Below are positions 17,321 to 31,642 of a stretch of DNA of 39,175 nt, piece after piece. Position 1 is the stretch's first letter; each line of letters opens with the position of its first letter. The notes under the pieces were generated by a model. That model made no database searches. It was not told where the DNA came from and saw only the letters and a list, made by a program, of their open reading frames with translations. A program made the translations under genes and the position numbers. The stretch is from Candidatus Woesearchaeota archaeon (GTDB lineage Archaea; Nanobdellota; Nanobdellia; Woesearchaeales; JAGVYF01): contig JAHFLT010000013.1 in NCBI GenBank assembly GCA_023264635.1, positions 1-39,175 on the forward strand. The letters are read 5' to 3'.

Positions 17321-17587
17321 ATGAAGAAAGAGATCTTCAATGTGTTCTTTCGGGAAAAACCAGTTATGATGTTGTTGGGCCTGCTCAATGCAAAAGGTCC
17401 TGTGTATGCTTCGTCATTGGCAAAAGCTGTTGACTGCACGTATTCTCATGTCGTCAAGATTCTCCAACAGATGGAGAAGCACGGCATTGTGAATTTCCAG
17501 AAGCAGGGCAGGCTTAAATTGCTTACATTGACAAAGAAAGGAAACGATATGGCAACGCACATGGATAGCGTGCGGAATGCACTTTAG
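17321..17587 (+). CDS. Winged-helix DNA-binding protein (MarR/ArsR-like)
   Basis: LLNAKGPVYASSLAKAVDCTYSHVVKILQQMEKHGIVNFQKQGRLKLLTLTKKG; track ORF starts at 17306. Confidence 0.8.
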   Translation: MKKEIFNVFFREKPVMMLLGLLNAKGPVYASSLAKAVDCTYSHVVKILQQMEKHGIVNFQKQGRLKLLTLTKKGNDMATHMDSVRNAL

Positions 17588-18498
17588 ACGATTGCAACTA
17601 CTTTATACGCAGCGTGCGTCTCATTGACAGACAATACAGCTGCTAGCCCTTTATACTTTGTTTGGTTGATGAATCTCCAGCTGGTTACTGACCCCGGATT
17701 AAGATAAAGGGTTTCTGAATAAGTATTCTGTGGAACAAAGATATCGTTGCGTGTTTCTGCTTGCCCTCCGGACTCATGTATGTGAGAACCAACTGCTATG
17801 TCAATTTTTTCTTCCTCCATGATTCTTTTCAGTATGCCATCACCAGCATGTTTTCCTCCAAACGCGATATCTATCCCATTACGTCTTGTGCTTTTTGGTA
17901 GCTGATGACTGAGGAGAATCTTTTTCTTCCTGACGTCAGCGAGATTACGGAGCATCTGCCATTCTTCATCTCCAAATAAGAATCCCCCATCTGCCACGAA
18001 TCCGGGAACATTATATCCCGGCAAAGAAATGATAACAACCTGTTCCAGATCAGCACGACGGATTTTTGTCATGTCTATTATATTCTTTCTCTTGAGCTTT
18101 CCAAGAACATTGTTATAAACATCCTTTGTTTCGTGATTGCCGGGGATAATAAAAACAGGCAACCCCGGCTCGCTTACAACAGTAAGGACATCTGTTAGCT
18201 CTTTTTCATCGGGGACATCATTCCTGAAATGATCAACGATGTCTCCGGAGAGAAGAAAGCCATCTACGCCTTTGTCAACAAAATACTGCACAAAGTAAGC
18301 AGTATTATTGATGTTGCCGTGAATATCCGAGAGTATTCCAAACAGTGAAAAAGACTTATTTGTCTTCGTTAGTTGAGTGAGAATTGTGTCTTGCTGCTGA
18401 TAATCAAGGCCATTAATGGTAATTACCTGTTGTTTACAACCCAGCAGAATGAGAATCGCCATCGCTATGGTTGCCGATATGGTTACCGCTTTCTCCAT
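17584..18498 (-). CDS. Metallophosphoesterase, putative lipoprotein
   Basis: N-terminus MEKAVTISATIAMAILILLGCKQQ (Cys after a hydrophobic segment); FGILSDIHGNINN, LLSGDIVDHF, IPGNHETKD, AVGSHIHESGG. Confidence 0.88.
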   Translation of the reverse strand: MEKAVTISATIAMAILILLGCKQQVITINGLDYQQQDTILTQLTKTNKSFSLFGILSDIHGNINNTAYFVQYFVDKGVDGFLLSGDIVDHFRNDVPDEKELTDVLTVVSEPGLPVFIIPGNHETKDVYNNVLGKLKRKNIIDMTKIRRADLEQVVIISLPGYNVPGFVADGGFLFGDEEWQMLRNLADVRKKKILLSHQLPKSTRRNGIDIAFGGKHAGDGILKRIMEEEKIDIAVGSHIHESGGQAETRNDIFVPQNTYSETLYLNPGSVTSWRFINQTKYKGLAAVLSVNETHAAYKVVAIV

Positions 18499-18603: not shown

Positions 18604-19269
18604 CTATTTATTTGATACTATCCCACGAGACGCCCCGCTGAGGATATTTACAGGGGAGATATACCAACTGTAGCTGCCGCGAAGGATAGGACACAAACCT
18701 TCATTTGATGTAAGCCATATCCACGCCTTCTGCCTAATCTCTTCCGGCAATATCGCATAATGACGAGACCAGAGCTTCTCGACCAAAGCAGGGTTTATTT
18801 CGTTCACATCCTTAATAGAAACCCATTCCCTCAATGAGCCAATTGAATACACTTCTTCACCCGCGTGTTTCAGTTTTCCTCCTTGCACGACATAACTCCA
18901 TTTATTATGATCATACACCAGATTCTCCGGGTCGAGATAACAATGTAATAGATTTCCTTCCCGCATCATCGCCATGCTCAGCCATTCACTGTAACCATTC
19001 CTCATATCATCAGCAATTGCTTGCTGTTCTGGAGATAATCTCCCTTCCAGTCTTCTGCAAATAAGGTCAAACGCTTCTGCTGGACGGGGATGGCGCTCGT
19101 AGCCGCGCGCTCGCAATGCGCGCAGACTGACGTCAAACATATGAAATCTTTTCTCTTTTCCATTATACACTGCTTTCTCTTCGAAAACAATGTCAGCGAG
19201 TACCGGCTTCACTGTAATCTCTTTTTTCTCATCAGGTTTACTGAGGCCGAGGTAGGAGTCAACGCTCAT
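18604..19269 (-). CDS. Variable-C-terminus paralogue family, copy P1
   Basis: Shares SKPDEKKEITVKP, RGYERHPRPAEAFDLICRRLEGRL, GNLLHCYLDPENL, GGKLKHAGEEVYS with P2-P4; divergent C-terminal segment before GASRGI. Confidence 0.85.
   Translation of the reverse strand: MSVDSYLGLSKPDEKKEITVKPVLADIVFEEKAVYNGKEKRFHMFDVSLRALRARGYERHPRPAEAFDLICRRLEGRLSPEQQAIADDMRNGYSEWLSMAMMREGNLLHCYLDPENLVYDHNKWSYVVQGGKLKHAGEEVYSIGSLREWVSIKDVNEINPALVEKLWSRHYAILPEEIRQKAWIWLTSNEGLCPILRGSYSWYISPVNILSGASRGIVSNK
18622..18690 (-). other. Candidate DGR-like variable region of P1
   Basis: CP-ILRGSYSWYISPVNILSG-ASRG; mainly NNY codons. Confidence 0.5.
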
Positions 19270-19931
19270 CGTTGTCGTACCCCGCGGGAGGCAATTTTGA
19301 GATAGTAGATACAGACACTATACCAGCCAATGTAGTCACCGCGATCAACAGGCCACAAAACGTTTTCGGATGGAATCCAAAGCCGCGCGTGCTGCCTTAT
19401 GTCTTCGGGTAATACAGCATAATGACGAGACCAGAGCTTCTCTACTAAAGCATGGTTTATTTCGTTCACGTCTTTAATGGGAACCCATCCACTCGCTGAA
19501 CCAAAAGAATACACTTCCTCACCCGCGTGTTTCAGTTTTCCTCCTTGCACGACATAACTCCATTTATTATGATCATATACCAGATTCTCCGGGTCGAGAT
19601 AACAATGTAACAGATTTCCTTTTTTTACCATTGCCATGCTCAGCCACTCACCGTAACCATTGAGCATATTATCAGCGATTGCTTGCTGGTCTGGTTGCAA
19701 TCTCCCTTCTAATCTTCTGCAAATAAGGTCAAACGCTTCTGCCGGTCTGGGATGGCGCTCGTAGCCGCGCGCTTGCAATGCGCGCAGACTGACGTCATAG
19801 GTGTACAGTCCTTTCATTTTTCCATTATACACTGCTTTCTCTTCGAAGACAATGTCTGATAGAGCTGGCTTTACGGTGATTTCCTTTTTCTCATCGGGTT
19901 TGCCGATGTCAAGATAGGAATCAAGGTTCAT
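19266..19931 (-). CDS. Variable-C-terminus paralogue family, copy P2
   Basis: As P1; 4-bp overlaps with both neighbours. Confidence 0.85.
   Translation of the reverse strand: MNLDSYLDIGKPDEKKEITVKPALSDIVFEEKAVYNGKMKGLYTYDVSLRALQARGYERHPRPAEAFDLICRRLEGRLQPDQQAIADNMLNGYGEWLSMAMVKKGNLLHCYLDPENLVYDHNKWSYVVQGGKLKHAGEEVYSFGSASGWVPIKDVNEINHALVEKLWSRHYAVLPEDIRQHARLWIPSENVLWPVDRGDYIGWYSVCIYYLKIASRGVRQR
19281..19352 (-). other. Candidate DGR-like variable region of P2
   Basis: WP-VDRGDYIGWYSVCIYYLKI-ASRG; 16 of 18 codons NNY. Confidence 0.55.
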
Positions 19932-20587
19932 CGTTGTCGTACTCCACGAGATGCACTGGTGATGTAGCTGGTGTCAACATCATACTTGGTGATGTAGTTA
20001 TTGCTACTGACAGGACGCAAAGCATTTTCTGGTGGAAGCAAAATCCACGCATTCTGCCTTATCTCTTCAGGTAATAGTGCATAGTGATGAGACCAAAGCT
20101 TCTCCACTAAGGCTGGATTCACATCGTTCATATATTTAATGTGAATCAACCTATGCAATGAGCCAATAGAGTACACTTCCTCTCCCGCGTTTTTCAGTTT
20201 TCCTCCTGGCACAACATATTTGTGTCCATTCCACACAAGATTCTCCGGGTCAAGATAGCAATGCAACAGATTTCCTTCCCGCAACATCGTCATACTCAGC
20301 CATTCCCCTCGATTACTGAACATATCGTCAGCAACCGCTTGTTGTTCTGGTTGCAGTCTTCCTTCCAGTCTTCTGCATGTAAGGTCAAATGCTTCTGCTG
20401 GACGGGGGTGGCGTTCGTAGCCGCGTTTTTGTAATGCACGCAGACTGGCATCGAATGTGTACCATTTTTTCTCTGTTCCTCCATACACTGCTCTTGGTTC
20501 GAAGACAATGTCTGAGAGTGCTGACTTTACGGTAATCTCCTTTTTCTCATCGGGTTTGCTTAGACTAAGATAAGATTCAATACTCAT
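19928..20587 (-). CDS. Variable-C-terminus paralogue family, copy P3
   Basis: As P1. Confidence 0.85.
   Translation of the reverse strand: MSIESYLSLSKPDEKKEITVKSALSDIVFEPRAVYGGTEKKWYTFDASLRALQKRGYERHPRPAEAFDLTCRRLEGRLQPEQQAVADDMFSNRGEWLSMTMLREGNLLHCYLDPENLVWNGHKYVVPGGKLKNAGEEVYSIGSLHRLIHIKYMNDVNPALVEKLWSHHYALLPEEIRQNAWILLPPENALRPVSSNNYITKYDVDTSYITSASRGVRQR
19943..20014 (-). other. Candidate DGR-like variable region of P3
   Basis: RP-VSSNNYITKYDVDTSYITS-ASRG; 17 of 18 codons NNY. Confidence 0.55.
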
Positions 20588-20625
20588 GACGTCGGGAAAT
20601 CAGAATTCGGTTAAAAAACTTTCGT

Positions 20626-21387
20626 TCACGCTCTTTTTCTCAAAAGATAGACTAACCCAATAATTACCACCACGAGAAGCCCATATTGTGTCGCAGTTAG
20701 CCCCCAGTACCGTGCATCTGTTGCTTCTTCTCGAAGGAAATCATTGAGAAAGCGAGCTGTGCCATAGAGCACACCATATCCCGCGCTCATCATTCCTGCA
20801 TACGCGAGACGTGGACGCATCTTCATCAGCACAACGAAAATCAGCAAGAGATACAGTATTTCATAGACAACAACAGGATGACGCAGTTGCCCAGCCATTT
20901 CTCCATTCAGCACATAGAATGCCCATGGCACTGTGGTCTGCACACCGAGATGAAGTCCCGTCAAATAGCATCCAACTCTGCCAATCGCATGACCAATGAC
21001 AAGTCCGGGCACAACGGCATCTGCATACGCCCAGAAGGAAAGCTGACGTGACTGAGTAAACAAATAACCACTGAATAATGCCCCTAAAAAACCCCCGAAG
21101 AATGCCATGCCACCGTTCCAGAAAGCAAGTATTTCATACACTGTACGCTCAGTGTCATGCGGCCAATAAAACAAGACAAACCATATCCGTGCTCCAAGCA
21201 GCCCACCTACAAAGATGTACACAAACAAGTCATACATCACATTAGCATTAAGCCCTTTGCGCGCAGTTTCTTTTCGCGCGACAAACAGCCCTGCTAAGAA
21301 CCCGAGCGCCACCATAACACCCCATAACTGGATGGGAATCACACTAAACAAATGAAGCGTTGGCTCAAAGATATAGTAAGGTATCAC
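20626..21387 (-). CDS. lgt: Prolipoprotein diacylglyceryl transferase family
   Basis: LWGVMVALGFLAGLFVARKE, GARIWFVLFYWP, WNGGMAFFGGFLGA, GHAIGRVGCYLTGLHLG, RHPVVVYEI, YGTARFLNDFLRE. Confidence 0.88.
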   Translation of the reverse strand: MIPYYIFEPTLHLFSVIPIQLWGVMVALGFLAGLFVARKETARKGLNANVMYDLFVYIFVGGLLGARIWFVLFYWPHDTERTVYEILAFWNGGMAFFGGFLGALFSGYLFTQSRQLSFWAYADAVVPGLVIGHAIGRVGCYLTGLHLGVQTTVPWAFYVLNGEMAGQLRHPVVVYEILYLLLIFVVLMKMRPRLAYAGMMSAGYGVLYGTARFLNDFLREEATDARYWGLTATQYGLLVVVIIGLVYLLRKRA

Positions 21388-22295
21388 GCTTCCTTCCTCC
21401 GAGCTGAATAAGCAATTATCAGAAAACAGAGTAATAACACGACACCAACAGAGGGCAAAAATCTGCTGCCTGCCAGCAACATATCGTGAATGATATAGTA
21501 ATATCCTGTCAAACCATATTGTAAAGAATTAAAGATAGTCGTATCCTTGAAAACCAGCAGAATAATCCCAAGAACAAGATAAAGCATTCCACTTATGAGC
21601 TTGGACGAATGCACAGAGTACAAACCGATAGTAAGTTCACGTCCTTTCAACCATGAACCACTAAAACGCGGGTACAAAACAGCAGCTAGAAGAAAGGGAA
21701 AACCTATGCCAAGCGAGTACACAAAAAGGAGCAACCCTGCACGCAATAGATTATGTAATACAGCGCCCATCGCGAGAACACCAGCAAGAACTGGTCCAGT
21801 GCACGCTGTCCAGCCAAATGCAAACAGGAATCCTGTCATGTATGAACTGGATGTCCTATAGGGAAATGAAAAACTGCCAAACGATACATTAGCAAGAAGT
21901 GCTATGCCGAGGAAAACAAAAAATAACCCGGCAAATTTCACAATAGATTCTCGGAAAGGAAAAAATTCTAAACTTGCCATACCGAGGTACCCTACAACAA
22001 CGCCCATGATTGTCAGAGCAGTACTCATGCCAAGCATAAAAAATAAGAAGCGTCTCCGTGCTCCTTGTTGCAACGAAGATGCTATGAACAGTAGTAATAT
22101 TGGCAGCACACACGGTGACAGAAAGGTTACCATGCCCGCAAGGAATGCAACACCAACGGAAATTGTCGTTGCTGCTTGTTCTGCGAATGCCTTGTTCTGA
22201 TCATTTAGCTTCGCAAGACTGGGTGGAAGTTTCAGCTCAGCAAAAACAACAGGAAGCAACACTAAAAAAAGAATAAAAAAAAGCTTCTTATTCAT
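21384..22295 (-). CDS. Cytochrome c biogenesis protein CcdA / DsbD transmembrane domain
   Basis: GVAFLAGMVTFLSPCVLPILLLF and FAFGWTACTGPVLAGVL; six or more TM helices; 4-bp overlap with lgt. Confidence 0.9.
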   Translation of the reverse strand: MNKKLFFILFLVLLPVVFAELKLPPSLAKLNDQNKAFAEQAATTISVGVAFLAGMVTFLSPCVLPILLLFIASSLQQGARRRFLFFMLGMSTALTIMGVVVGYLGMASLEFFPFRESIVKFAGLFFVFLGIALLANVSFGSFSFPYRTSSSYMTGFLFAFGWTACTGPVLAGVLAMGAVLHNLLRAGLLLFVYSLGIGFPFLLAAVLYPRFSGSWLKGRELTIGLYSVHSSKLISGMLYLVLGIILLVFKDTTIFNSLQYGLTGYYYIIHDMLLAGSRFLPSVGVVLLLCFLIIAYSARRKEA

Positions 22296-23448
22296 TGTCT
22301 CCTTTGGCTACCTCTCCTTTCACAATGGTATTCTTCACCAGATCCATATATGTAACTCCTGTCATTGCTCCAAGATTCCTGAATACCATAAACCCATCAG
22401 ATTCTACAGTGCCTACTCGTTGCCAGACATTCACAAGCGCCTTGTAGTCTTTTGCCTCAGATGATAAGAGAATTGTTGGCAATGCTGTCACATTATATTT
22501 CTGGACCATTGTTTTACCCTCAAGCGATGCGTAGTCATACTGCTTTTCACTGGATATGAAAACTCCAAAGTTATTCAGTATCTGCTTATGCACACTGACA
22601 TTATAGCACTCCTTGCAGCTGTTATCAGACAAATAAGTTATAGTAACTAAACCTTTGACATTACCTGTTGCCAGATCCTTGTACGGTGGATTCACTTCCT
22701 TCAGCACATAACTTCCGTCAGAAGCAATATCTCCATACATTTTCCATGACCCCGCAAATTGCTCGTAGACGCTAAAGTCAGAAGAGAGTACCAATGCTGG
22801 CAAATGAGGTATCTTATACTTCTCAACTGCATTATCTCCTTCTTTGCTGCCTTTGGACACTGTTACGTCTTTCACAACTGCTACACCCATAGCCTTCAAC
22901 TGACTGAGCAGCGGTGCAAGATCTGTACATTCCTTGCATGAATCATCTTTGATAATGGTAGCTGCTACGTGACCAAGTACTTTACCATTTTTATCGGTAT
23001 AAGGCGGTATTGGTTCAGCAAAGAGAATTATCCCTTCTTTTTCTGTGCCGCCTAAATCAGCTAGCTTGTTCTTGAGAAGAGTTGCACGTGCAATATCACC
23101 TGTTACAACTAATGATGGGAACTTTGCTAAGCTATATTTGGTGATTGTCTCTTTTGCTTCCGGAGCATCGAATTCAAGTGTCTTTTTTGTCTTGAGTTGG
23201 ATTCCTTTTGTTGCTTCAATTTCAGTTACTACTTGTTTGATATCAAAGCAATCAGTGCATTTACTATTGGTGATAAGAATCGCATCTAGAACAACAGGCT
23301 TTGCTGCATCTTCTGAAACCTTGAGTTTTTCTGTCAAAAGCTGCTGTATGCTGTACAGTGTATAAAAATTTATAACAACGACTAAGACAAGCGCAACAGT
23401 CAATACTCCAAGTAGACTTCTATAATTCAATTTGACTTTCTTTTCCAT
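22288..23448 (-). CDS. Membrane-anchored protein with three tandem thioredoxin-like/CxxC repeats
   Basis: N-terminal TM; CTDC, CKEC, CKEC each at the start of a repeated ~115-aa unit with KYxxxxxPxLVxS; Met at 23448 preferred over 23496. Confidence 0.8.
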   Translation of the reverse strand: MEKKVKLNYRSLLGVLTVALVLVVVINFYTLYSIQQLLTEKLKVSEDAAKPVVLDAILITNSKCTDCFDIKQVVTEIEATKGIQLKTKKTLEFDAPEAKETITKYSLAKFPSLVVTGDIARATLLKNKLADLGGTEKEGIILFAEPIPPYTDKNGKVLGHVAATIIKDDSCKECTDLAPLLSQLKAMGVAVVKDVTVSKGSKEGDNAVEKYKIPHLPALVLSSDFSVYEQFAGSWKMYGDIASDGSYVLKEVNPPYKDLATGNVKGLVTITYLSDNSCKECYNVSVHKQILNNFGVFISSEKQYDYASLEGKTMVQKYNVTALPTILLSSEAKDYKALVNVWQRVGTVESDGFMVFRNLGAMTGVTYMDLVKNTIVKGEVAKGDNE

Positions 23449-23485
23449 GCAAACCACCTCACTACAAAAATAAAAATAAAAAAAA

Positions 23486-23698
23486 CTAACACCCACCTAC
23501 CATACTTGGCAGATTATCGATGCCGCTTTGCGTTTTTGCTGGCTGGCTACTACCTGCCTGCGGCGTTACACTTTTCGAAGCAGTGGCGATTGAACCACCA
23601 ACAATCTTATCTTTTAACCCAGTTAGCTGGAACGCCTGCACAAGTGCGACCAAGACAAGCACCGCCAGCAACAAGACAAACCATGTTTGTTTTTCCAT
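23486..23698 (-). CDS. Small single-TM protein ending in LPSMVGGC
   Basis: TM WFVLLLAVLVLVALVQAF, low-complexity linker, C-terminal IDNLPSMVGGC. Confidence 0.75.
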   Translation of the reverse strand: MEKQTWFVLLLAVLVLVALVQAFQLTGLKDKIVGGSIATASKSVTPQAGSSQPAKTQSGIDNLPSMVGGC

Positions 23699-23806
23699 TA
23701 GTTACACCCCACTTAAAATTATTTGTAATTTCAACGACATAGTATATTTACTGTCATCTATCACTATCAAATTTATCACTATCAGCGTTTCACTATCTCA
23801 ATAATA

Positions 23807-24619
23807 TCAACACCCACCTACCATGCTTGGTAATGCCTCAAGGGAAGTTTTATCTACATTCCCGCCTTCGGAGAGGATCTTCTTAACGGTGGGTCCGGGA
23901 TACCATAACGCTTTCCATCGCGTTGCTTCTCCCATAAGTTGCTCATCAGTATATTTATCCTCATAATTTTTCAGGAAGTACTTAAATATTCCACGCCATG
24001 CTGCTGAATGTGCACATCCACACTGTCCAATGCGTGTCGGGTTATTTGGGCTTCCACAGCAGAAGTCACATGTGAAGAGAGTAATTAATTTCTTGTACCT
24101 CTCCTGTGCTGCTGGACTCAAGTCTGTTTCTTTTAACGTTACTCCTGCTTTATAAAATCTTTTTCCACCTAGGCCGCCGTCATACTGTGCCCATATATTT
24201 AGGGCAGCTACTGGATCATCAAAACTTACACCAACTTCTTGGCCGTACCACGGCGTTCCTGTTGGGACATATTTGTTAAGTGCATCTTGTGCGGGATCGC
24301 CTGTCGATGCGGGATTTGCTACATCACTAATGGTAGGAAATTCCCGGACACCACTCTTTCCATCTGCTGTCAATGCAGGGCCAAGAATAACATTCTTCCC
24401 GCTCTTACCACCTAAGACAGAGAGGAACGAGCCAGTACTATGAATACTTGACCCGGGAACCATTGAACTTACTTGATATATCTGGTACTGTGTCAGTGCA
24501 ACAATCACGATAGATAGCACGAGTAGGACTGTGCCATACTTGCTAAGAAAATCATCATGTTCTGGTGGGTTAGGTACTCCGACTGAATGAGCCCCCTTTT
24601 CCGTTTCACTTATTTCCAT
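23807..24619 (-). CDS. Membrane-anchored Cys-rich protein ending in LPSMVGGC
   Basis: N-terminal TM; CDFCCGSPNNPTRIGQCGCAHSAAWRG cluster; C-terminal EALPSMVGGC. Confidence 0.8.
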   Translation of the reverse strand: MEISETEKGAHSVGVPNPPEHDDFLSKYGTVLLVLSIVIVALTQYQIYQVSSMVPGSSIHSTGSFLSVLGGKSGKNVILGPALTADGKSGVREFPTISDVANPASTGDPAQDALNKYVPTGTPWYGQEVGVSFDDPVAALNIWAQYDGGLGGKRFYKAGVTLKETDLSPAAQERYKKLITLFTCDFCCGSPNNPTRIGQCGCAHSAAWRGIFKYFLKNYEDKYTDEQLMGEATRWKALWYPGPTVKKILSEGGNVDKTSLEALPSMVGGC

Positions 24620-24895
24620 AATTTCACCCCGAAAAGTGGATGTTTGAAATAGCCATCATTATTTAAACATTTCTAGGAGAACATGTAAAAAGCACTTTGC
24701 TTGTTTTACAAACTCTCCTATTCAATCCTTTTCAAACTCACCTATTTTCAAACATCCTTTAACTACCTTTACATCTCCCGCAATGTGTTACACATTTTGT
24801 AATTGTTTATCTATTTAAGTTTTGTGTTTCATTGCGATTATCGATTTCATTAGAGATGTCACCCCAAAATGATTATGTTATCCCGAAATGATAGT

Positions 24896-24907
24896 AACAT
24901 TTATATG
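24896..24907 (+). promoter_or_regulatory. TATA-like element upstream of the 24947 CDS
   Basis: aacatttatatg about 40 nt upstream of the start. Confidence 0.4.
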
Positions 24908-24946
24908 TTTGGGTAGTTTTTATACGCGAGAGAGGTACAATAATAG

Positions 24947-25552
24947 ATGGTCAAAATACTTGCAACAGGAGACTGGCATGGTGACATGGGACGTCCTGCC
25001 ACACTGGCAGAGCTGGCAGTAAAAGAGAATGTTGACATAGTGCTGTTGGGCGGAGACTTGGTAAATGCAGAAAAAGACACAACCAATTTAATTGGCCCAT
25101 TCCTCAGCAAGAAACTCAAAGTAGGTTTTGTGTGGGGTAACCACGATGGTCCTGAGCTTGCTGACTTCTGGCAGAATGCCTATAAGATTAGCAACCTCCA
25201 CGGTTATGGTATTATGGTTGGTGATGTCGGATTTTTTGGCTGTGGTGGAGCTAATGTTGGTTTGGACCAATTCACAGAAGATGAGATGTTTCAATATCTT
25301 TTAGTAGGCTATGAAAAAGTTAAGAGCGCAAAAGTCAAAGTGATGGTCACCCATGTTCATCCTGCAGGAACAATAGGGGAAAAATTCTCACGCTACGTGA
25401 AGGGGTCGAAAGGTGTCAGGAAAGCAATCGATGTTCTTCAACCGAATGTACATGTAACCTGTCATGTCCATGAAGCTGAAGGGATTGAGGACAAAGTCGG
25501 CAAGACGCGCATTGTCCATGTCGGGAGAAATGGGAAAATATTAACTGTGTAG
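24947..25552 (+). CDS. Metallophosphoesterase (calcineurin-like)
   Basis: ILATGDWHGDMGRP, LLGGDLVNAE, VWGNHDGPE, VTHVHPAG, HVTCHVHEAEG. Confidence 0.88.
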   Translation: MVKILATGDWHGDMGRPATLAELAVKENVDIVLLGGDLVNAEKDTTNLIGPFLSKKLKVGFVWGNHDGPELADFWQNAYKISNLHGYGIMVGDVGFFGCGGANVGLDQFTEDEMFQYLLVGYEKVKSAKVKVMVTHVHPAGTIGEKFSRYVKGSKGVRKAIDVLQPNVHVTCHVHEAEGIEDKVGKTRIVHVGRNGKILTV

Positions 25553-25604
25553 AAATAATAATTATCTTTAGAATTGAGGCTTTGAGGCTATTTTTCGTTA
25601 CTGT

Positions 25605-26351
25605 TTATTGTTGAAGCCACTCAACACATGTTCGGATAAATGAGGATTCATTAATATATCTACTATCTTCATGTGCCAGATCAAAGGTGACAAACACTGT
25701 CTTGAAGTGTTTTCTGTTGCTCACTGCAACGCATTCTAAAGTATTCTTCATCCCTTCCGTTGCGTTTCTATTAGAAAGCATAACCATTCGATGGCTGCCG
25801 TCGTTTGGCTTAATGATATCAGCCATATTCCATAGCTTGAAATGGTAGTCATCTGATGAATAGTTAGAGAATATAGCTGGCAGATATGCCCACCTGAAAA
25901 CGTCACATTGTTCATTAACACCTATATCCGGATCTCCTTCTGTTTTGATATAGTGCGCATTCAGATACCACCCTAAAAATTGTTGGTGGTCATTAAAGCC
26001 GTGCCTTAGTGAACGTGCTAATCCATCTCCAGTAAGCAGTAGGCTTCGTCTTCCATCGGAATTGTCGAGGTACTCTTTCAGTCGTGCCTCTTCTTCATTA
26101 GATAATGATCCACTGTTTCCCGTAAACCAGAAGACCGTGCGATATTTCACCATCTGCTCTAAAGATGGCGTTCCCATGCTTTGCGTCTCCCAGTACGTAG
26201 CAGGTATGCCTGCTTCATGACACCATACTTTGTATTTCTCTTCATACCTCTTTCCATTGTCATCATCTACAAGAAAGATGGGCTCAGATGCATATGCTGA
26301 TGAGATAAGTGCTGATGGTATAAGAAGCGCAGATAAGACGATGGCTTTCAT
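25605..26351 (-). CDS. Secreted protein with a GATase1/ThuA-like or DDDN-type alpha/beta domain
   Basis: Signal peptide MKAIVLSALLIPSALISSAYA; FLVDDDNGKRYEEKYK...TVFWFTGNSGSLSNEEEARLKEYLDNSDGRRSLLLTGDGLA; track ORF starts at 26510. Confidence 0.65.
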   Translation of the reverse strand: MKAIVLSALLIPSALISSAYASEPIFLVDDDNGKRYEEKYKVWCHEAGIPATYWETQSMGTPSLEQMVKYRTVFWFTGNSGSLSNEEEARLKEYLDNSDGRRSLLLTGDGLARSLRHGFNDHQQFLGWYLNAHYIKTEGDPDIGVNEQCDVFRWAYLPAIFSNYSSDDYHFKLWNMADIIKPNDGSHRMVMLSNRNATEGMKNTLECVAVSNRKHFKTVFVTFDLAHEDSRYINESSFIRTCVEWLQQ

Positions 26352-26423
26352 GACGTTGTTGGAAAAGAATGCAATTATAAATTCTTTGCGGAGAAATTCT
26401 TTTAGGTAATCATATATATCACC

Positions 26424-26963
26424 ATGAGTACATATGACAGCATGAGAAACCTTTTTTGTTTTATTCTGTTGCTTGTTGTCATTGCTATTGCTGGCTGCAG
26501 AACAGGACACCCAGCTGTTCCTGAGACATGGGATCCCGAACCGCCACCAGTACAGCTACCGGTGCAACAAGTACAATCCGCTGAAGCCACTGAAACACCG
26601 ACTGCACAGACCACTGAAGAGCTGAAACAACAAGCTTTACCACCAGTTCCACCTAGCCCGAAATCCGCTCTTGATGCGAAGCTCGCTCCCACAGAAAGTC
26701 AAACTGGTCGTACTACACCAAGCACTGTCGGTGTAACTATAAGTGGTTTCAAATTTGTTCCTCAGGTAGTCCACATCAAAGTCGGCAGTGCAGTCAAATG
26801 GATAAATGATGATGCTGTGCCGCATACTGTAACAAGCAGCGACTTTGATTCTGGTCTGATGAAGAAAGGGCAAAGCTGGTCATACACTTTCAGTAAGAGT
26901 GGGTCATACGACTATATCTGTACCCCTCATCCTTGGATGAAAGGCAAAATCATTGTTGAGTAG
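26424..26963 (+). CDS. Plastocyanin/cupredoxin-type copper lipoprotein
   Basis: Lipobox VIAIAGC; VTISGFKFVPQVVHIKVGSAVKWINDDAVPHTVTS...YICTPHPWMKGKIIVE gives His, Cys, His, Met type 1 Cu ligands. Confidence 0.88.
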   Translation: MSTYDSMRNLFCFILLLVVIAIAGCRTGHPAVPETWDPEPPPVQLPVQQVQSAEATETPTAQTTEELKQQALPPVPPSPKSALDAKLAPTESQTGRTTPSTVGVTISGFKFVPQVVHIKVGSAVKWINDDAVPHTVTSSDFDSGLMKKGQSWSYTFSKSGSYDYICTPHPWMKGKIIVE

Positions 26964-27258
26964 TGCAACCGTATATGCTGCATCTGTCCATATATTCCCA
27001 ACAATCTTTATGATAGGGTGAGTGACAACTAGCACACGTCACATACATTTTTCCAAAACCATAGCCACAGACAAGGCAATGTGAATCAGCAAGATGCTCT
27101 AATGGGGATTCTCGAGAAAGTGGTTTACGAAATGAACGGATACTATCTTTTGCCCATGTGTATGCCTCTTTGATTTTGTTGGCAAAATAGCTAAAAGGAT
27201 CATGATCAACGTCTATCACTACAGGGATATTCCCCTCAGACAAATAGATTAGTTTCAT
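26950..27258 (-). CDS. Prokaryotic RING-finger-like zinc-binding protein
   Basis: HCLVCGYGFGKMYVTCASCHSPYHKDCWEYMDRCSIYGC (C-x2-C-x9-C-x2-C-x4-H-x2-C...C-x4-C). Confidence 0.65.
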   Translation of the reverse strand: MKLIYLSEGNIPVVIDVDHDPFSYFANKIKEAYTWAKDSIRSFRKPLSRESPLEHLADSHCLVCGYGFGKMYVTCASCHSPYHKDCWEYMDRCSIYGCTTQQ

Positions 27259-27887
27259 TTTGTGTCTAACTTCGCCCGTATAAGCAAAGGATTCATATCC
27301 GTAAGACCATAGAGATGAATGCTTTCCTCGATTAATGCAGCATACTTTTGGAGTAACACCAACCTGTCGTAGATCGATGGCAAATCATCTCCGGGTTTAA
27401 TGATACCCTTATAGCCTAAGCGTAGTAATGGTTTGCTTACTGAATTAGCAAATATGCGTGCTTCCTGAAAGAGAATAATCTGATGAATTTTCTCAACAGT
27501 AGCCATGAATTCATTTTCTTTTTGCAGGATGATGTCTTCAGATGATTTGTGCAGGTCACGGTATGCTATTGGCGTAGGATGGTTATAAAGAGCTCCTGTT
27601 TCGGGAATAAAACAAGCAACACTCATCAATGATCCCTGATACCAGAAATCAATGAACAGTTTTTCTTCTTTGCTTTTACATTGGGACTGCGTAAGATATT
27701 CTTTGTACTCTCCCCTCCGATCATAATAATCATACAATGCCCCATACCCTAGCCAGTCGTCTCCAGACAAATAGTCATCAGCTCTTTGTATGTTTTGCGT
27801 GCTATCTTTTTTCTTTTTTACAAGCGGGTCTAGTAGCTGTACAAGATTTTCTAATGTTTTCTTTGTCTTATCAAAGAGTTCATCCAT
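27255..27887 (-). CDS. Hypothetical protein coupled to the RING-like gene
   Basis: 4-bp overlap with 26950-27258; Met at 27887 preferred because the track start 27959 lies inside the repeat element. Confidence 0.6.
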   Translation of the reverse strand: MDELFDKTKKTLENLVQLLDPLVKKKKDSTQNIQRADDYLSGDDWLGYGALYDYYDRRGEYKEYLTQSQCKSKEEKLFIDFWYQGSLMSVACFIPETGALYNHPTPIAYRDLHKSSEDIILQKENEFMATVEKIHQIILFQEARIFANSVSKPLLRLGYKGIIKPGDDLPSIYDRLVLLQKYAALIEESIHLYGLTDMNPLLIRAKLDTK

Positions 27888-27923
27888 CAATTTGTGAATT
27901 GGAGCAACTATTAAAATGTTGTG

Positions 27924-28205
27924 CGTCAATAGGCTCTGTAGAAAGTGTACCATTGCCACTCTTAAGGGAGAGCACCTTCAAGAGTGAGGAAAAGTGACAA
28001 AGGGGATGCAAAGTTGCGAAGCAACTTGCACAAGAAATCTGCGAGATTTCTTTGTGCTCCATCCGGGAAATGTAAAGAAGCCATAGGCTTCTTGCACAAG
28101 GAGAACAACGGTTCTCCTTTGTGTCACTTTACAGACTAACAGCGCATGCGAGCTGAGGTGCAATGGCGAGCGAGAGCGAGACTTTCTACAGAGTTACGTC
28201 AATAG
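27924..28205. mobile_element. MITE-like non-autonomous element
   Basis: 13-bp TIRs CTCTGTAGAAAGT (27934-27946) / ACTTTCTACAGAG (28181-28193), 9-bp flanking direct repeat CGTCAATAG (27924-27932 and 28197-28205), several internal hairpins. Confidence 0.6.
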
Positions 28206-28267
28206 AACATCAATAGAAAGTGACTACGCCAAAAGTATTAAATAGTTACTATAACGTGGTTACAAAT

Positions 28268-28657
28268 ATGGCAGTTTTTTTTACGCAACGAACAGTGGAT
28301 GATGCTGTACAACAGGAAATGCCTGAAGCACAGCGCAGACTATTGCAGCAGTTTGAAGGGAACAAACAGCTGCAGAAAACATGGGAAGAGCACGCCGAGA
28401 AATGCGAAACTGCACAAGAAGGACTCGTTATTGTTAAGAGGCAAAATATCATTGGTGGACAAGAAACGAAAGAAACATCGGGAAGCATTTATAGCAAGAG
28501 CTCTGTCTCCTTTGGATGTGCTTGCAGGCAGCTCTTCTTTACAGCAGATGAAAAGGGAAATGTAACTGCAAAAGAGAGTTCTGTGGGAAAGGAAGAGAAA
28601 CCAGTCGGGTATCTTGCTGAAGAGAAAACTACTTCTCTCTATTCACAGCGGCTTTGA
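28268..28657 (+). CDS. Hypothetical protein
   Basis: ORF MAVFFTQRTVDDAVQQEMPEAQRRLLQQFEGNKQLQKTWEEH; track start 28220. Confidence 0.5.
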   Translation: MAVFFTQRTVDDAVQQEMPEAQRRLLQQFEGNKQLQKTWEEHAEKCETAQEGLVIVKRQNIIGGQETKETSGSIYSKSSVSFGCACRQLFFTADEKGNVTAKESSVGKEEKPVGYLAEEKTTSLYSQRL

Positions 28658-29315
28658 CTTTATCCGGGAAATTGGATATGATTCCATCAACACCATAAGA
28701 AAGCCAGTAGGCTATCTCTAAGGATTCATCAACTGTATATACATAGACAGAGCATCCTTCTCTATGAGCTATTGAAATATGCTCAGGCTGAAGGAAGTCC
28801 TTTGAGGGGTTATAGGCAATAACTTGGAGTTCTCGTAACAATTCTGGCAGATTATAAGGGATTCCCTCGAAAAGTACTGCTGTCTTTATCTCAGGTTCAT
28901 ATTCCTTAATTAGCTGCAATGCCTCTTGATTAAAAGAGGATATCATTATCTGGTCAAAGGCATTGCGTTTCCTGAGGTAATACATTATCAGTCCCTCAAT
29001 TCCATATCCTTTGATCTCTACGTTAATTTTTGCTTTGTCTGCGACAAGCCAATAAACATCGTCCAGCGTGGGTATCTTCTCTCCTTTGCCTGCATCGAGT
29101 TGCTGCAGCTCTGCTTTTGTGTAAGAGGTGACTAAGCCATGGCCATTGGTGGTTCTATCCAATGTATTGTCGTGAATCACCATCAGGTGGCCGTCTTTGC
29201 TCGCATGGACATCAAGCTCTACCATATCGACACCCAAATCTAAGGCTTTCTGGAAAGAGCACAATGTATTCTCTGGCTCATGACCAGCTGCCCCACGATG
29301 ACCTATTACCTGCAT
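28629..29315 (-). CDS. Glycerophosphodiester phosphodiesterase
   Basis: MQVIGHRGAAGHEPENTLCSFQKALDLGVDMVELDVHASKDGHLMVIHDNTLDRTTNGHG. Confidence 0.93.
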   Translation of the reverse strand: MQVIGHRGAAGHEPENTLCSFQKALDLGVDMVELDVHASKDGHLMVIHDNTLDRTTNGHGLVTSYTKAELQQLDAGKGEKIPTLDDVYWLVADKAKINVEIKGYGIEGLIMYYLRKRNAFDQIMISSFNQEALQLIKEYEPEIKTAVLFEGIPYNLPELLRELQVIAYNPSKDFLQPEHISIAHREGCSVYVYTVDESLEIAYWLSYGVDGIISNFPDKVKAAVNREK

Positions 29316-29359
29316 AGAAAAAGAAAACACTATTAATTATATAAAATTACTTTAGAGAA

Positions 29360-29503
29360 TTACTTTCTGCATGTTCCTTTGCACTTGCCCCATTCTACGG
29401 GGTGAACATCAGCACGCTTGCAGGTGCATCCTATGGAGGTGCAACTTATTGTACCGTCATCATCTTTTTGCCAATAGTTGTTTTTTTGTGTTGTGTATGT
29501 CAT
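29360..29503 (-). CDS. 47-aa Cys-rich microprotein (not in the ORF track)
   Basis: MTYTTQKNNYWQKDDDGTISCTSIGCTCKRADVHPVEWGKCKGTCRK; start overlaps the upstream stop (TAATG). Confidence 0.5.
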   Translation of the reverse strand: MTYTTQKNNYWQKDDDGTISCTSIGCTCKRADVHPVEWGKCKGTCRK

Positions 29504-29877
29504 TATCCATGCAGGAAATAAGGATTCTCAACATGCATTCCCGGCTCCTTTACAGTGAGGTATTTACTGTCTTCAACAGATTTTTTGAGGGAATAGGATA
29601 AACCAATTGGTTTGAATGCAGTATACAGTGGCTCTTGTTCTGGGGCAGTTGCATAGTGTATCGGTGCTGCTGTTAGGAAACCAGTGTATTGTCTGGCATC
29701 ACTTTCACAGACATGTTCCTTCTCGCACTTCAGGAGCAATTCTTCATCTCGCGGAGTTACACGAGCTACTAGGTTGTCTCCTCTTGTATCTGACATCCTC
29801 CTTTCGAGATTTTGAGAAGGATCAATGATGTCTTTGGTTAGATGGATAACCATTTCCTTTTGATCGTTGTCACACAT
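29503..29877 (-). CDS. Hypothetical protein
   Basis: 124-aa ORF in a run of minus-strand genes. Confidence 0.5.
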   Translation of the reverse strand: MCDNDQKEMVIHLTKDIIDPSQNLERRMSDTRGDNLVARVTPRDEELLLKCEKEHVCESDARQYTGFLTAAPIHYATAPEQEPLYTAFKPIGLSYSLKKSVEDSKYLTVKEPGMHVENPYFLHG

Positions 29878-30035
29878 AGTGTCTCCTTTTTGCTTTATTG
29901 TTGTTATTATATTTCCTTTCTTTTAAAGGGTTTGGATAACGCATCAGACTGTTTTGTCTCATTATGGTCAACTTGCTTTGCTGCATATATCTTTGTTACT
30001 AACAAGATCATTACAGAAACTGCATTTTGATTGGA

Positions 30036-30692
30036 TCATTTTAGGCGTACCCCGCGAGAAGCCTTGAAGTTGTAGTAGGCGCTGATAATATACTGGTTGG
30101 CGAAGCCGCGACTAACAGGCCACAAAACATTTTCGGGTGGAAGATAAAGCCATGCATTCTGCCTAACCTCTTCCGGTAATATCGCATAGTGACGAGACCA
30201 GAGCTTCTCGACCAAAGCAGGGTTTATTTCGTTCGTCTCTTTAATGGGAACCCACTCACACAATGAGCTAACTGAATACACTTCCTCACCCGCGTGTTTC
30301 AGTTTTCCTCCTTGCACGACATAGTCGTTCCCGTTCCACCTCAAATTTTCAGGATCAAGATAACAATGCAACAGATTTCCTTCCCGCAGCACCGCCATGC
30401 TCAGCCATTCTCCATTATTATCCACCCTATCGTCAGCAACCACTTGCTGTTCTGGTTGCAGTCTCCCTTCCAGTCCTCTGCAAATAAGGTCAAAGGCTTC
30501 TGCTGGACGCGGATGGCGCTCGTAGCCGCGTTCTCGTAGCGCTCGCAGGCTGGCGTCGAAGGTGTACAGTCTTTTCTCTTCCTCTTTATACACCGCTTTC
30601 GGCTGGAAGACAACGTCAGCGAGTGCTGGCTTTACAGTAATTTCCTTTTTTTCGTCGGGTTTGCTTATGCCGAGATAACTGTCGATGGTCAT
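30036..30692 (-). CDS. Variable-C-terminus paralogue family, copy P4
   Basis: Close paralogue of P1-P3; 4-bp overlap with the upstream metallophosphoesterase. Confidence 0.85.
   Translation of the reverse strand: MTIDSYLGISKPDEKKEITVKPALADVVFQPKAVYKEEEKRLYTFDASLRALRERGYERHPRPAEAFDLICRGLEGRLQPEQQVVADDRVDNNGEWLSMAVLREGNLLHCYLDPENLRWNGNDYVVQGGKLKHAGEEVYSVSSLCEWVPIKETNEINPALVEKLWSRHYAILPEEVRQNAWLYLPPENVLWPVSRGFANQYIISAYYNFKASRGVRLK
30051..30119 (-). other. Candidate DGR-like variable region of P4
   Basis: WP-VSRGFANQYIISAYYNFK-ASRG; 15 of 17 codons NNY. Confidence 0.55.
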
Positions 30693-31642
30693 TTTAGTTC
30701 ATGTCTCGCGATTTGCTTAATTAGGTCTACCTTCTTTTTATCTGGACTCTTGAGAGAGTAAAACGTGACGCTCTTGACTGTGCCGTCATTGTCTGTGTCT
30801 ATCTCAGCGAATGTGCCCCAGTCCAGAATTTTATCTGTAGCTGGGACAGTCATTGGATCACGGCCTCTACACAGCACTTTGTCTGTTATCGCTTCCATTG
30901 AACGCGAATCTATGAGGTCAAATCTTCCGAGGTTGCCACTGTTGACAATAACAGTCTCTTTGATTTTATCAATGCCTTTGAAACCCTTCTGATTATTTCC
31001 ATTTGGCCCAGATTCATGAACATGCCCAACAAGAAGCAATTTTGGCGCATGTACTGCTTCCTCCAAGTATCGTCTTGTCACTGGTGTCCCCCAGTGCTGT
31101 TGAAAAACGGTATAATCCAGAGAGCAGTGCGGTGGCTGGTGTGTTACTGCTATTGTTGGTTCGTGTTGGCATAAGAGAGCATACAGTTCTTTGTCATCGA
31201 ATCGTGCAATCAATGGACTGCCAGAAAACAAGTCTTCGAGATTTGCTATGTGCGCTGGCGTCTGCCTACCCCCACCATAGCCAAAATGTTTTATTCCGTC
31301 CTCTTCCAACAGCTTATGATCAAGATTATGATCTCCATAAACTGCATCAATCGCCACAGTGTCGTAATTACCAGGAATGACGAAATAAGGAATACCGCTT
31401 GCATCAAGAATGCGTTTGAATTCTGTATAAATACGAGTGGTCTGATCTATGACAGCCTGTCTAAAAGCATCTCTATTTCGTGTCTCGGTGAACCTCTCAA
31501 TATCACTTTTACCATAACCCTTTAGATTTAAATCTCCCGAGATAATAATTTTATCCGCATTCTTTGCCTGCGCAAAGTTCGCCAAGGCTGAGAGCGCATC
31601 ATAGTCTTCATGAACGTCTGAGCCGTGGATGTATTTGGTCAT
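30689..31642 (-). CDS. Metallophosphoesterase
   Basis: YIHGSDVHEDYDAL, IISGDLNLKG, IPGNYDTV, VTHQPPHC, LVGHVHESGPNG. Confidence 0.85.
   Translation of the reverse strand: MTKYIHGSDVHEDYDALSALANFAQAKNADKIIISGDLNLKGYGKSDIERFTETRNRDAFRQAVIDQTTRIYTEFKRILDASGIPYFVIPGNYDTVAIDAVYGDHNLDHKLLEEDGIKHFGYGGGRQTPAHIANLEDLFSGSPLIARFDDKELYALLCQHEPTIAVTHQPPHCSLDYTVFQQHWGTPVTRRYLEEAVHAPKLLLVGHVHESGPNGNNQKGFKGIDKIKETVIVNSGNLGRFDLIDSRSMEAITDKVLCRGRDPMTVPATDKILDWGTFAEIDTDNDGTVKSVTFYSLKSPDKKKVDLIKQIARHELK

Follow-up and report, generated by a model that had tools for sequence, protein, structure and literature searches.

The window analysed here, a stretch of 39,175 nucleotides (contig JAHFLT010000013.1) from a Candidatus Woesearchaeota archaeon, contains four paralogous genes that are strongly conserved except for a short segment close to their 3' end. 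With neither a reverse transcriptase (RT) nor a template repeat (TR) in view, this raises the question whether these segments were written by a diversity-generating retroelement (DGR).

Four paralogues and their family in the genome

The four genes, P1 to P4, are genuine ORFs of 218-221 aa, all on the minus strand. P1-P3 form a chain in which each gene shares four bases (ATGA) with the next. P4 is separated from them by 9.4 kb that hold unrelated genes, so the region 18604-30692 is not one element. P4 follows a metallophosphoesterase gene, again with a four-base ATGA overlap. The features are as follows (VR, variable region):

18604..19269, minus strand: P1, variable-protein paralogue of 221 aa, last gene of the three-gene ATGA-overlapping tandem array
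18634..18684, minus strand: VR of P1, 17 codons, LRGSYSWYISPVNILSG, placed by the codon table
18619..18633, minus strand: conserved ASRGI end of P1, directly 3' of the VR at the place of a DGR IMH, judged by relatives
19266..19931, minus strand: P2, variable-protein paralogue of 221 aa
19293..19346, minus strand: VR of P2, 18 codons, DRGDYIGWYSVCIYYLKI
19278..19292, minus strand: conserved ASRGV end of P2 (cgcggggta), IMH position
19928..20587, minus strand: P3, variable-protein paralogue of 219 aa, apparently mosaic
19955..20008, minus strand: VR of P3, 18 codons, SSNNYITKYDVDTSYITS, the same as the VR of copy L023 on contig C14
19940..19954, minus strand: conserved ASRGV end of P3, IMH position
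30036..30692, minus strand: P4, variable-protein paralogue of 218 aa, its start overlapping the stop of the metallophosphoesterase gene
30063..30113, minus strand: VR of P4, 17 codons, SRGFANQYIISAYYNFK, third bases equal to the family consensus in 17 of 17
30048..30062, minus strand: conserved ASRGV end of P4 (tctcgcggggta), IMH position

The four paralogues with hypervariable ends named by the original prediction are genuine, but they represent only part of a much larger family. A search of the source genome, a metagenome assembly of 1.316 Mb in 46 contigs (96.1% complete, at least one contaminant contig), revealed that this DPANN archaeon carries about 36 copies, spread over 17 contigs. This number was obtained from 38 matches by joining one frameshifted copy and dropping one match to the N-terminal tag of another protein. 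29 copies are intact, five are truncated, frameshifted or located at contig edges, and two are divergent. The family thereby fills nearly 2% of the 1.3 Mb genome. Its members are mostly about 70% identical and occur in many distinct gene contexts across the 17 contigs; a comparison of the neighbouring genes revealed no operon partner common to the copies. A second tagged family adjoins a few of them. At about eight contig ends a member of the family is found within 1.2 kb, indicating that the repeats broke the assembly. The family is present in 22 of 353 genomes of the order, usually as one copy and with a maximum of five outside the source genome. Searches in Pfam, NCBIfam and PADLOC gave no convincing match for the variable protein, and no relative of it was detected in viral contigs.

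Codon signature of the variable regions

NNY codons comprise 86% of the VRs versus 44% of the gene bodies. In P1-P4, 62 of 70 VR codons are NNY (binomial test on the pooled codons, p = 4e-14, with the bodies of the same genes setting the expected NNY rate) and 13 of 18 third bases match between P2 and P3; both of these originally reported counts are exact. Windows of 18 body codons contain at most 13 NNY in any copy. Amino acids allowing both endings are encoded by NNY and NNR codons in a ratio of 237:46 in the VRs and of 1419:1806 in the bodies.

Pairwise differences at codon positions 1/2/3 average 0.54/0.49/0.33 among 33 VRs versus 0.19/0.13/0.33 among 29 bodies, so the codon-position pattern of the VRs does differ from that of the bodies. 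As claimed, positions 1 and 2 are hyperdiverged, but the third position is no more conserved than in the body (0.33 in both). Equally hypervariable body columns exhibit differences of 0.48/0.39/0.50. Furthermore, the third VR position is poor in purine/pyrimidine changes (0.095 versus 0.31 in these body columns). Adenine is kept at 10% or more in 26 of 26 variable VR columns at positions 1 and 2, whereas C reaches 10% in only four. The NNG-TAT anchor recurs throughout the family as it does in P1-P4, with NNG in 28 of 31 codons and a nearly invariant TAT. On this sequence evidence, the VR variation is best described as the product of a process that targets adenines and disregards third codon positions.

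The VRs frequently differ by indels of one codon; these count against a DGR origin, as retrohoming normally keeps length, though one codon also separates TR and VR in a pair of the relative G163. The GGGGTA end is kept in most copies and likewise in relatives. Clear inverted repeats, such as would form the hairpin or cruciform expected after an IMH, follow some array-end copies only and none follows P1; inner tandem copies lead straight into the next gene.

Relatives, fold and the search for the machinery

A genome scan identified one relative outside the species on JAUYQE010000128.1 (L073, titled Nanoarchaeota MAG), with 39% identity. The sequence ggtcgtggcaactacaacaacaggttcgacatcaacagcgacaactacaacaacagggcttctcgcgga lies about 380 bp past its VR and precedes an RT that contains the motifs PLGNWTSQ and YVDD. 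The VR of L073 is frameshifted and an ungapped TR search gave no pair; TR and VR were paired by eye. Within the same order, homologues are located in cis with a DGR-type RT in L073/G280, G291 and G333, and an adenine-rich TR is found near the homologue in L073, G333 and G163. In G333, four targets, TR and RT share one locus; one VR departs from the TR at 12 of 19 A sites and at no non-A site, another at 13 of 16 A sites and one non-A site. In G163, a TR accompanies two target domains (0 non-A, 10 of 19 A mismatches), and one TR/VR pair differs by one codon; by eye, the RT downstream of this TR is a C-terminal stub only, and further RTs lie elsewhere in the G163 genome. The TR match in G291 is less clean (3 non-A mismatches). 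G001, a member of the same genus, possesses an RT and a TR serving a different target. Where the TR reads ..GAATAG, the VR of the relatives reads ..GGGGTA. The TRs of L073 and G163 translate as VGRGNYNNRFDINSDNYNNRASRG and VGRGNYNNRFDVNGYNYNNRASRE, respectively, and thus resemble the consensus VR of the source genome, which is close to SRGNYNNRYDINTYFNYRASRGV.

A direct mismatch test of the VRs against the external TRs reached only weak significance (p values of 0.02 and 0.045), since the lineages carry fixed differences at some non-A sites. We replaced it by site entropy, chosen after the mismatch result was known. Entropy amounts to 1.54 bits at the adenines of the external TRs versus 0.94 bits at other position-1/2 sites (p = 5e-5), the template being taken from external TRs and not from the VRs, and protein constraint at non-A sites could add to this contrast. 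Sites without a template adenine are less variable, not strictly fixed. Independently of the codon pattern, the homologues beside RT and TR and the variation predicted by external TR adenines thus uphold the original reading of the four genes as DGR targets, and support the assignment of the P1-P4 family to putative DGR variable proteins.

By eye, the domain is fused to a kinase-like C-lobe in G163 and to a zinc finger in G001, and the G333 homologue lies beside a MoxR-like AAA_5 protein and a vWA-like protein (DxSxS motif by eye). These fusions and neighbours suggest sensing or conflict roles. In the source genome, neither MoxR nor vWA, the partners of a MoxR-vWA ternary conflict system, was recognized by eye among the genes directly adjacent to the 29 intact copies.

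A first structure model of P4 resembled no fold in the PDB or in libraries of viral structures, and sequence comparison matched neither PDB profiles nor AvpA. The model obtained from a more diverse alignment including the relatives reached a pLDDT of 88 (86-88 in five runs). C-type lectins dominate its PDB matches in Foldseek; CL-K1 (4yli) ranks first and AvpA (5ioo), a Nanoarchaeota DGR protein, second (prob 0.69, E 0.03, TM ~0.4), with E-values above the usual cut-off. The variable protein is therefore likely to adopt a C-type lectin fold, in line with an earlier guess from its conserved ending, by predicted matches that are weak in score and coherent in content. Its predicted lectin face may bind a ligand.

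An inspection of the whole genome for a DGR RT and an A-rich template, as proposed in the original prediction, detected neither in the 96%-complete assembly. PF00078 and the L073 RT as queries found no DGR RT; as a positive control, PF00078 recovered RTs of the DGR type from 11 of the 22 genomes of relatives, the same genus among them. RT fragments on contig C2 (4.1 kb) are Ty3/gypsy-like, resemble a eukaryote-like retroelement and were judged contamination. TR-like queries matched essentially the family's own VRs in the source genome, weaker matches being at chance level, and a TR leader query gave no match there. The TR-like query picked up a VR of 85% identity with E = 2e-23, so a TR lying on one of the contigs should have shown up. 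A complete DGR is absent from the assembly. At a completeness of 96%, RT and TR may have been lost or lie in a gap; it is more likely that they were retired than merely unassembled.

Age of the variable regions, competing explanations and known systems

Third-position divergence in VRs offers a clock since the last rewriting, by which DGR history becomes testable from one genome. The third-position C/T mismatch is 0.277 in VRs versus 0.257 in bodies. As the VR third positions are as diverged as the bodies, most VRs have an age similar to that of the genes carrying them and were not recently rewritten from one template, which fits the ageing array considered at the outset. Near-pristine third positions were found in P4, L006, L031, C43 and L032. 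Five pairs among L006, P4, C43 and L031 exhibit zero third-base and 12-18 position-1/2 differences in the VR, and the bodies of these pairs differ at 20-33% of third bases. A permutation ignoring relatedness among copies expects 0.34 pairs of this kind, and 0 of 500 permutations reach five. The VRs of L006, P4, C43 and L031 look as if rewritten more recently than most.

The longest exact block shared by dispersed copies comprises 407 nt (C30/C40) and ends at the VR. In P3, 300 nt are identical to a copy on C29 and 113 nt, extending through the VR, to a copy on C14; VR distance and body distance are not correlated (rho 0.03). P3 therefore appears to be a mosaic, with VR blocks moving between loci. 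Such identical blocks between dispersed copies show apparent gene conversion.

In our opinion, P1-P4 probably belong to a dispersed family of DGR targets that was rewritten in trans in the past and whose machinery has been lost or lies in an assembly gap. The protein of this DPANN archaeon would consist of an N-terminal tag and, after it, a small domain resembling C-type lectins. Its VRs would have been written in the source lineage by mutagenic retrohoming directed at adenines, from a template rich in AAY/AAG codons that read approximately AGT-CGC-GGC-AAC-TAC-AAC-AAC-AAG-TAT-AAT-ATC-AAC-ACC-TAC-TAC-AAC-AAC-AAG followed by GCT-TCT-CGC-GG. The RT would have reached the dispersed copies in trans, not all of them at the same time, and would then have been lost, which we favour, or be hidden in an assembly gap; gene conversion between the copies may now maintain and reshuffle the repertoire. 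Lack of RT and TR in the same genome, the weak fold match and the aged VR third positions were counted against this explanation. A less probable but conceivable extension is that the repertoire has outlived its RT, such that about 36 lectin-like genes of a minimal genome, their binding loops once made by DGR mutagenesis, are now diversified by gene conversion alone as an archive resembling those of antigenic variation.

Alternatively, the DGR might be alive, its RT and TR lying in a gap of the assembly and continuing to rewrite some or many of the 36 dispersed copies in trans. The division into 46 contigs, about eight ends of which lie within 1.2 kb of copies, would leave room for this, and the near-pristine VRs of P4, L006, L031, C43 and L032 would be its recent products. 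An RT and a TR do occur within the genus (G001), though for another target, and DGR targets located remotely, in trans, have been described (PMC10907252, PMC7517822). However, RT, TR and TR leader all escaped detection at 96% completeness, and a C/T mismatch of 0.277 in VRs versus 0.257 in bodies indicates that most copies were not recently rewritten. A living DGR is thus possible, and we put it forward tentatively.

That no retroelement was involved, and that diversifying selection and gene conversion produced a hypervariable loop using NNY by chance, is very unlikely. The conversion blocks are real and other body positions are hypervariable too, but third-base differences and transversions reach 0.50 and 0.31 in those hypervariable body columns versus 0.33 and 0.095 in the VR. 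The synonymous choice (237 NNY to 46 NNR in the VR, 1419 to 1806 in the body) and homologues that are bona fide DGR targets also speak against it. It is extremely unlikely that strain variants of few loci or chimeric contigs inflated the family and mimicked mosaics. Repeats can be misjoined and the bin does hold the 4.1 kb contig with Ty3/gypsy-like fragments, yet the copies occupy many gene contexts on 17 contigs with mostly about 70% identity, and a block that recurs unchanged in two divergent settings requires truly shared sequence.

The presumed target family resembles the Nanoarchaeota DGRs with AvpA (PMC4372165, PMC5006420; PDB 5ioo) in its DPANN host, in orphan variable proteins without Pfam match, in a short VR that contains AAY codons, lies close to the C-terminus and precedes a conserved strand of the RxxGV type at the IMH position, and probably in the C-type lectin fold, AvpA being our second Foldseek match. 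Unlike the family described here, with about 36 copies and neither RT nor TR in the assembly, AvpA adjoins its own RT and TR, and 46 residues follow its VR, whereas our proteins end right after it. Nanoarchaea with several DGRs per genome are known (PMC4372165). DGR-type lectin paralogues dispersed within a genome also occur in cyanobacteria, as CLec proteins; some of these remote variable proteins retain traces of TR-VR homology with no RT nearby, and the authors suggest that the machinery was removed after selection (PMC7517822). Those genomes contain DGRs, whereas no RT was found here and about 36 copies are many for a genome of 1.3 Mb.

The genome of Thiohalocapsa PB-PSB1 likewise encodes numerous diversified lectin targets, of which some lie in trans (PMC10907252). 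Its antigen-sensor repertoire includes MoxR-linked loci, a linkage seen for our family in the relative G333; beside the copies of the source genome, no MoxR or vWA partner was seen. PB-PSB1 has 14 targets, a number called unusual (PMC10907252), at nine DGR loci with measured diversification, in contrast to about 36 copies and no RT here. As one survey reports bacteria in which dozens to hundreds of VR copies belong to a single template (PMC6642488), copy number alone is not unprecedented.

Most DGR repertoires in the literature compared comprise a handful to about a dozen targets with working machinery. What is new is that such a scale, the missing machinery and gene conversion come together in an archaeon with a genome of 1.3 Mb. 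The pilE/pilS and vlsE systems are gene-conversion archives of antigenic variation, in which dispersed variant copies exchange blocks. The family described here also consists of dispersed copies that appear to swap blocks, but it has no known single expression site, and its variation would first have been made by an adenine-directed process. If this is true, diversity made by a DGR can be duplicated, archived and recombined like that of a classical antigenic-variation system.

Genes accompanying the variable proteins in the window

Three metallophosphoesterase-like genes are found in the window, the third of which overlaps the start of P4, one of the four variable proteins encoded there:

17584-18498, metallophosphoesterase-like, named by eye
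24947-25552, metallophosphoesterase-like, named by eye
30689-31642, metallophosphoesterase-like, named by Pfam

Furthermore, a small ORF (26950-27258) encodes a cysteine/histidine finger of the same kind as that at L066:4752-5648 in the same-genus genome G001, where it is fused to a variable-domain protein.

A second family with the same N-terminal tag

The N-terminal tag [YF]xGxGKP[DE]EK of the variable proteins is shared with a second paralogous family, of which about 12 members were seen. In this family the tag is followed by GGxFINxG repeats, which are beta-helix-like. Some copies lie immediately 3' of a variable-protein gene. Members were detected at:

L008:1376, L011:1501, L018:121, L038:914, L043:6785
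L017:2156 and 2974; L040:1326 and 2143 (two per locus)
L042:7460, 8403 and 9265 (three at one locus)

Intergenic repeats and a Ty3/gypsy-like contig

Palindromic repeats occur in runs at window 28010-28200, and similar hairpins were found 3' of several array-end copies (L010, L013, L021, L025, L029, L032). These may be general intergenic repeats or target hairpins of the DGR type.

The 4.1 kb contig L003 (G000:C2) of the bin carries gag-, RT- and integrase-like Ty3/gypsy fragments and is probably eukaryotic contamination.

DGR loci in related genomes

In the related genome G163 a DGR RT seems to be reduced by deletion to a C-terminal stub (L105:5050-5220). The TR adjoining it is intact, and two target domains are also present there; loss of the cis-RT thus appears to have been caught in a relative. 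The stretch 5' of the TR (ctacacgtcctgccatcagggcaagagcc...) is conserved between two DGRs (L073:2730-2820 and L105:5430-5570), possibly representing a structured leader RNA. In another DPANN archaeon (L137, G333:C74) a single locus combines TR and RT with four targets and additionally encodes a MoxR-like ATPase as well as a vWA-like protein.
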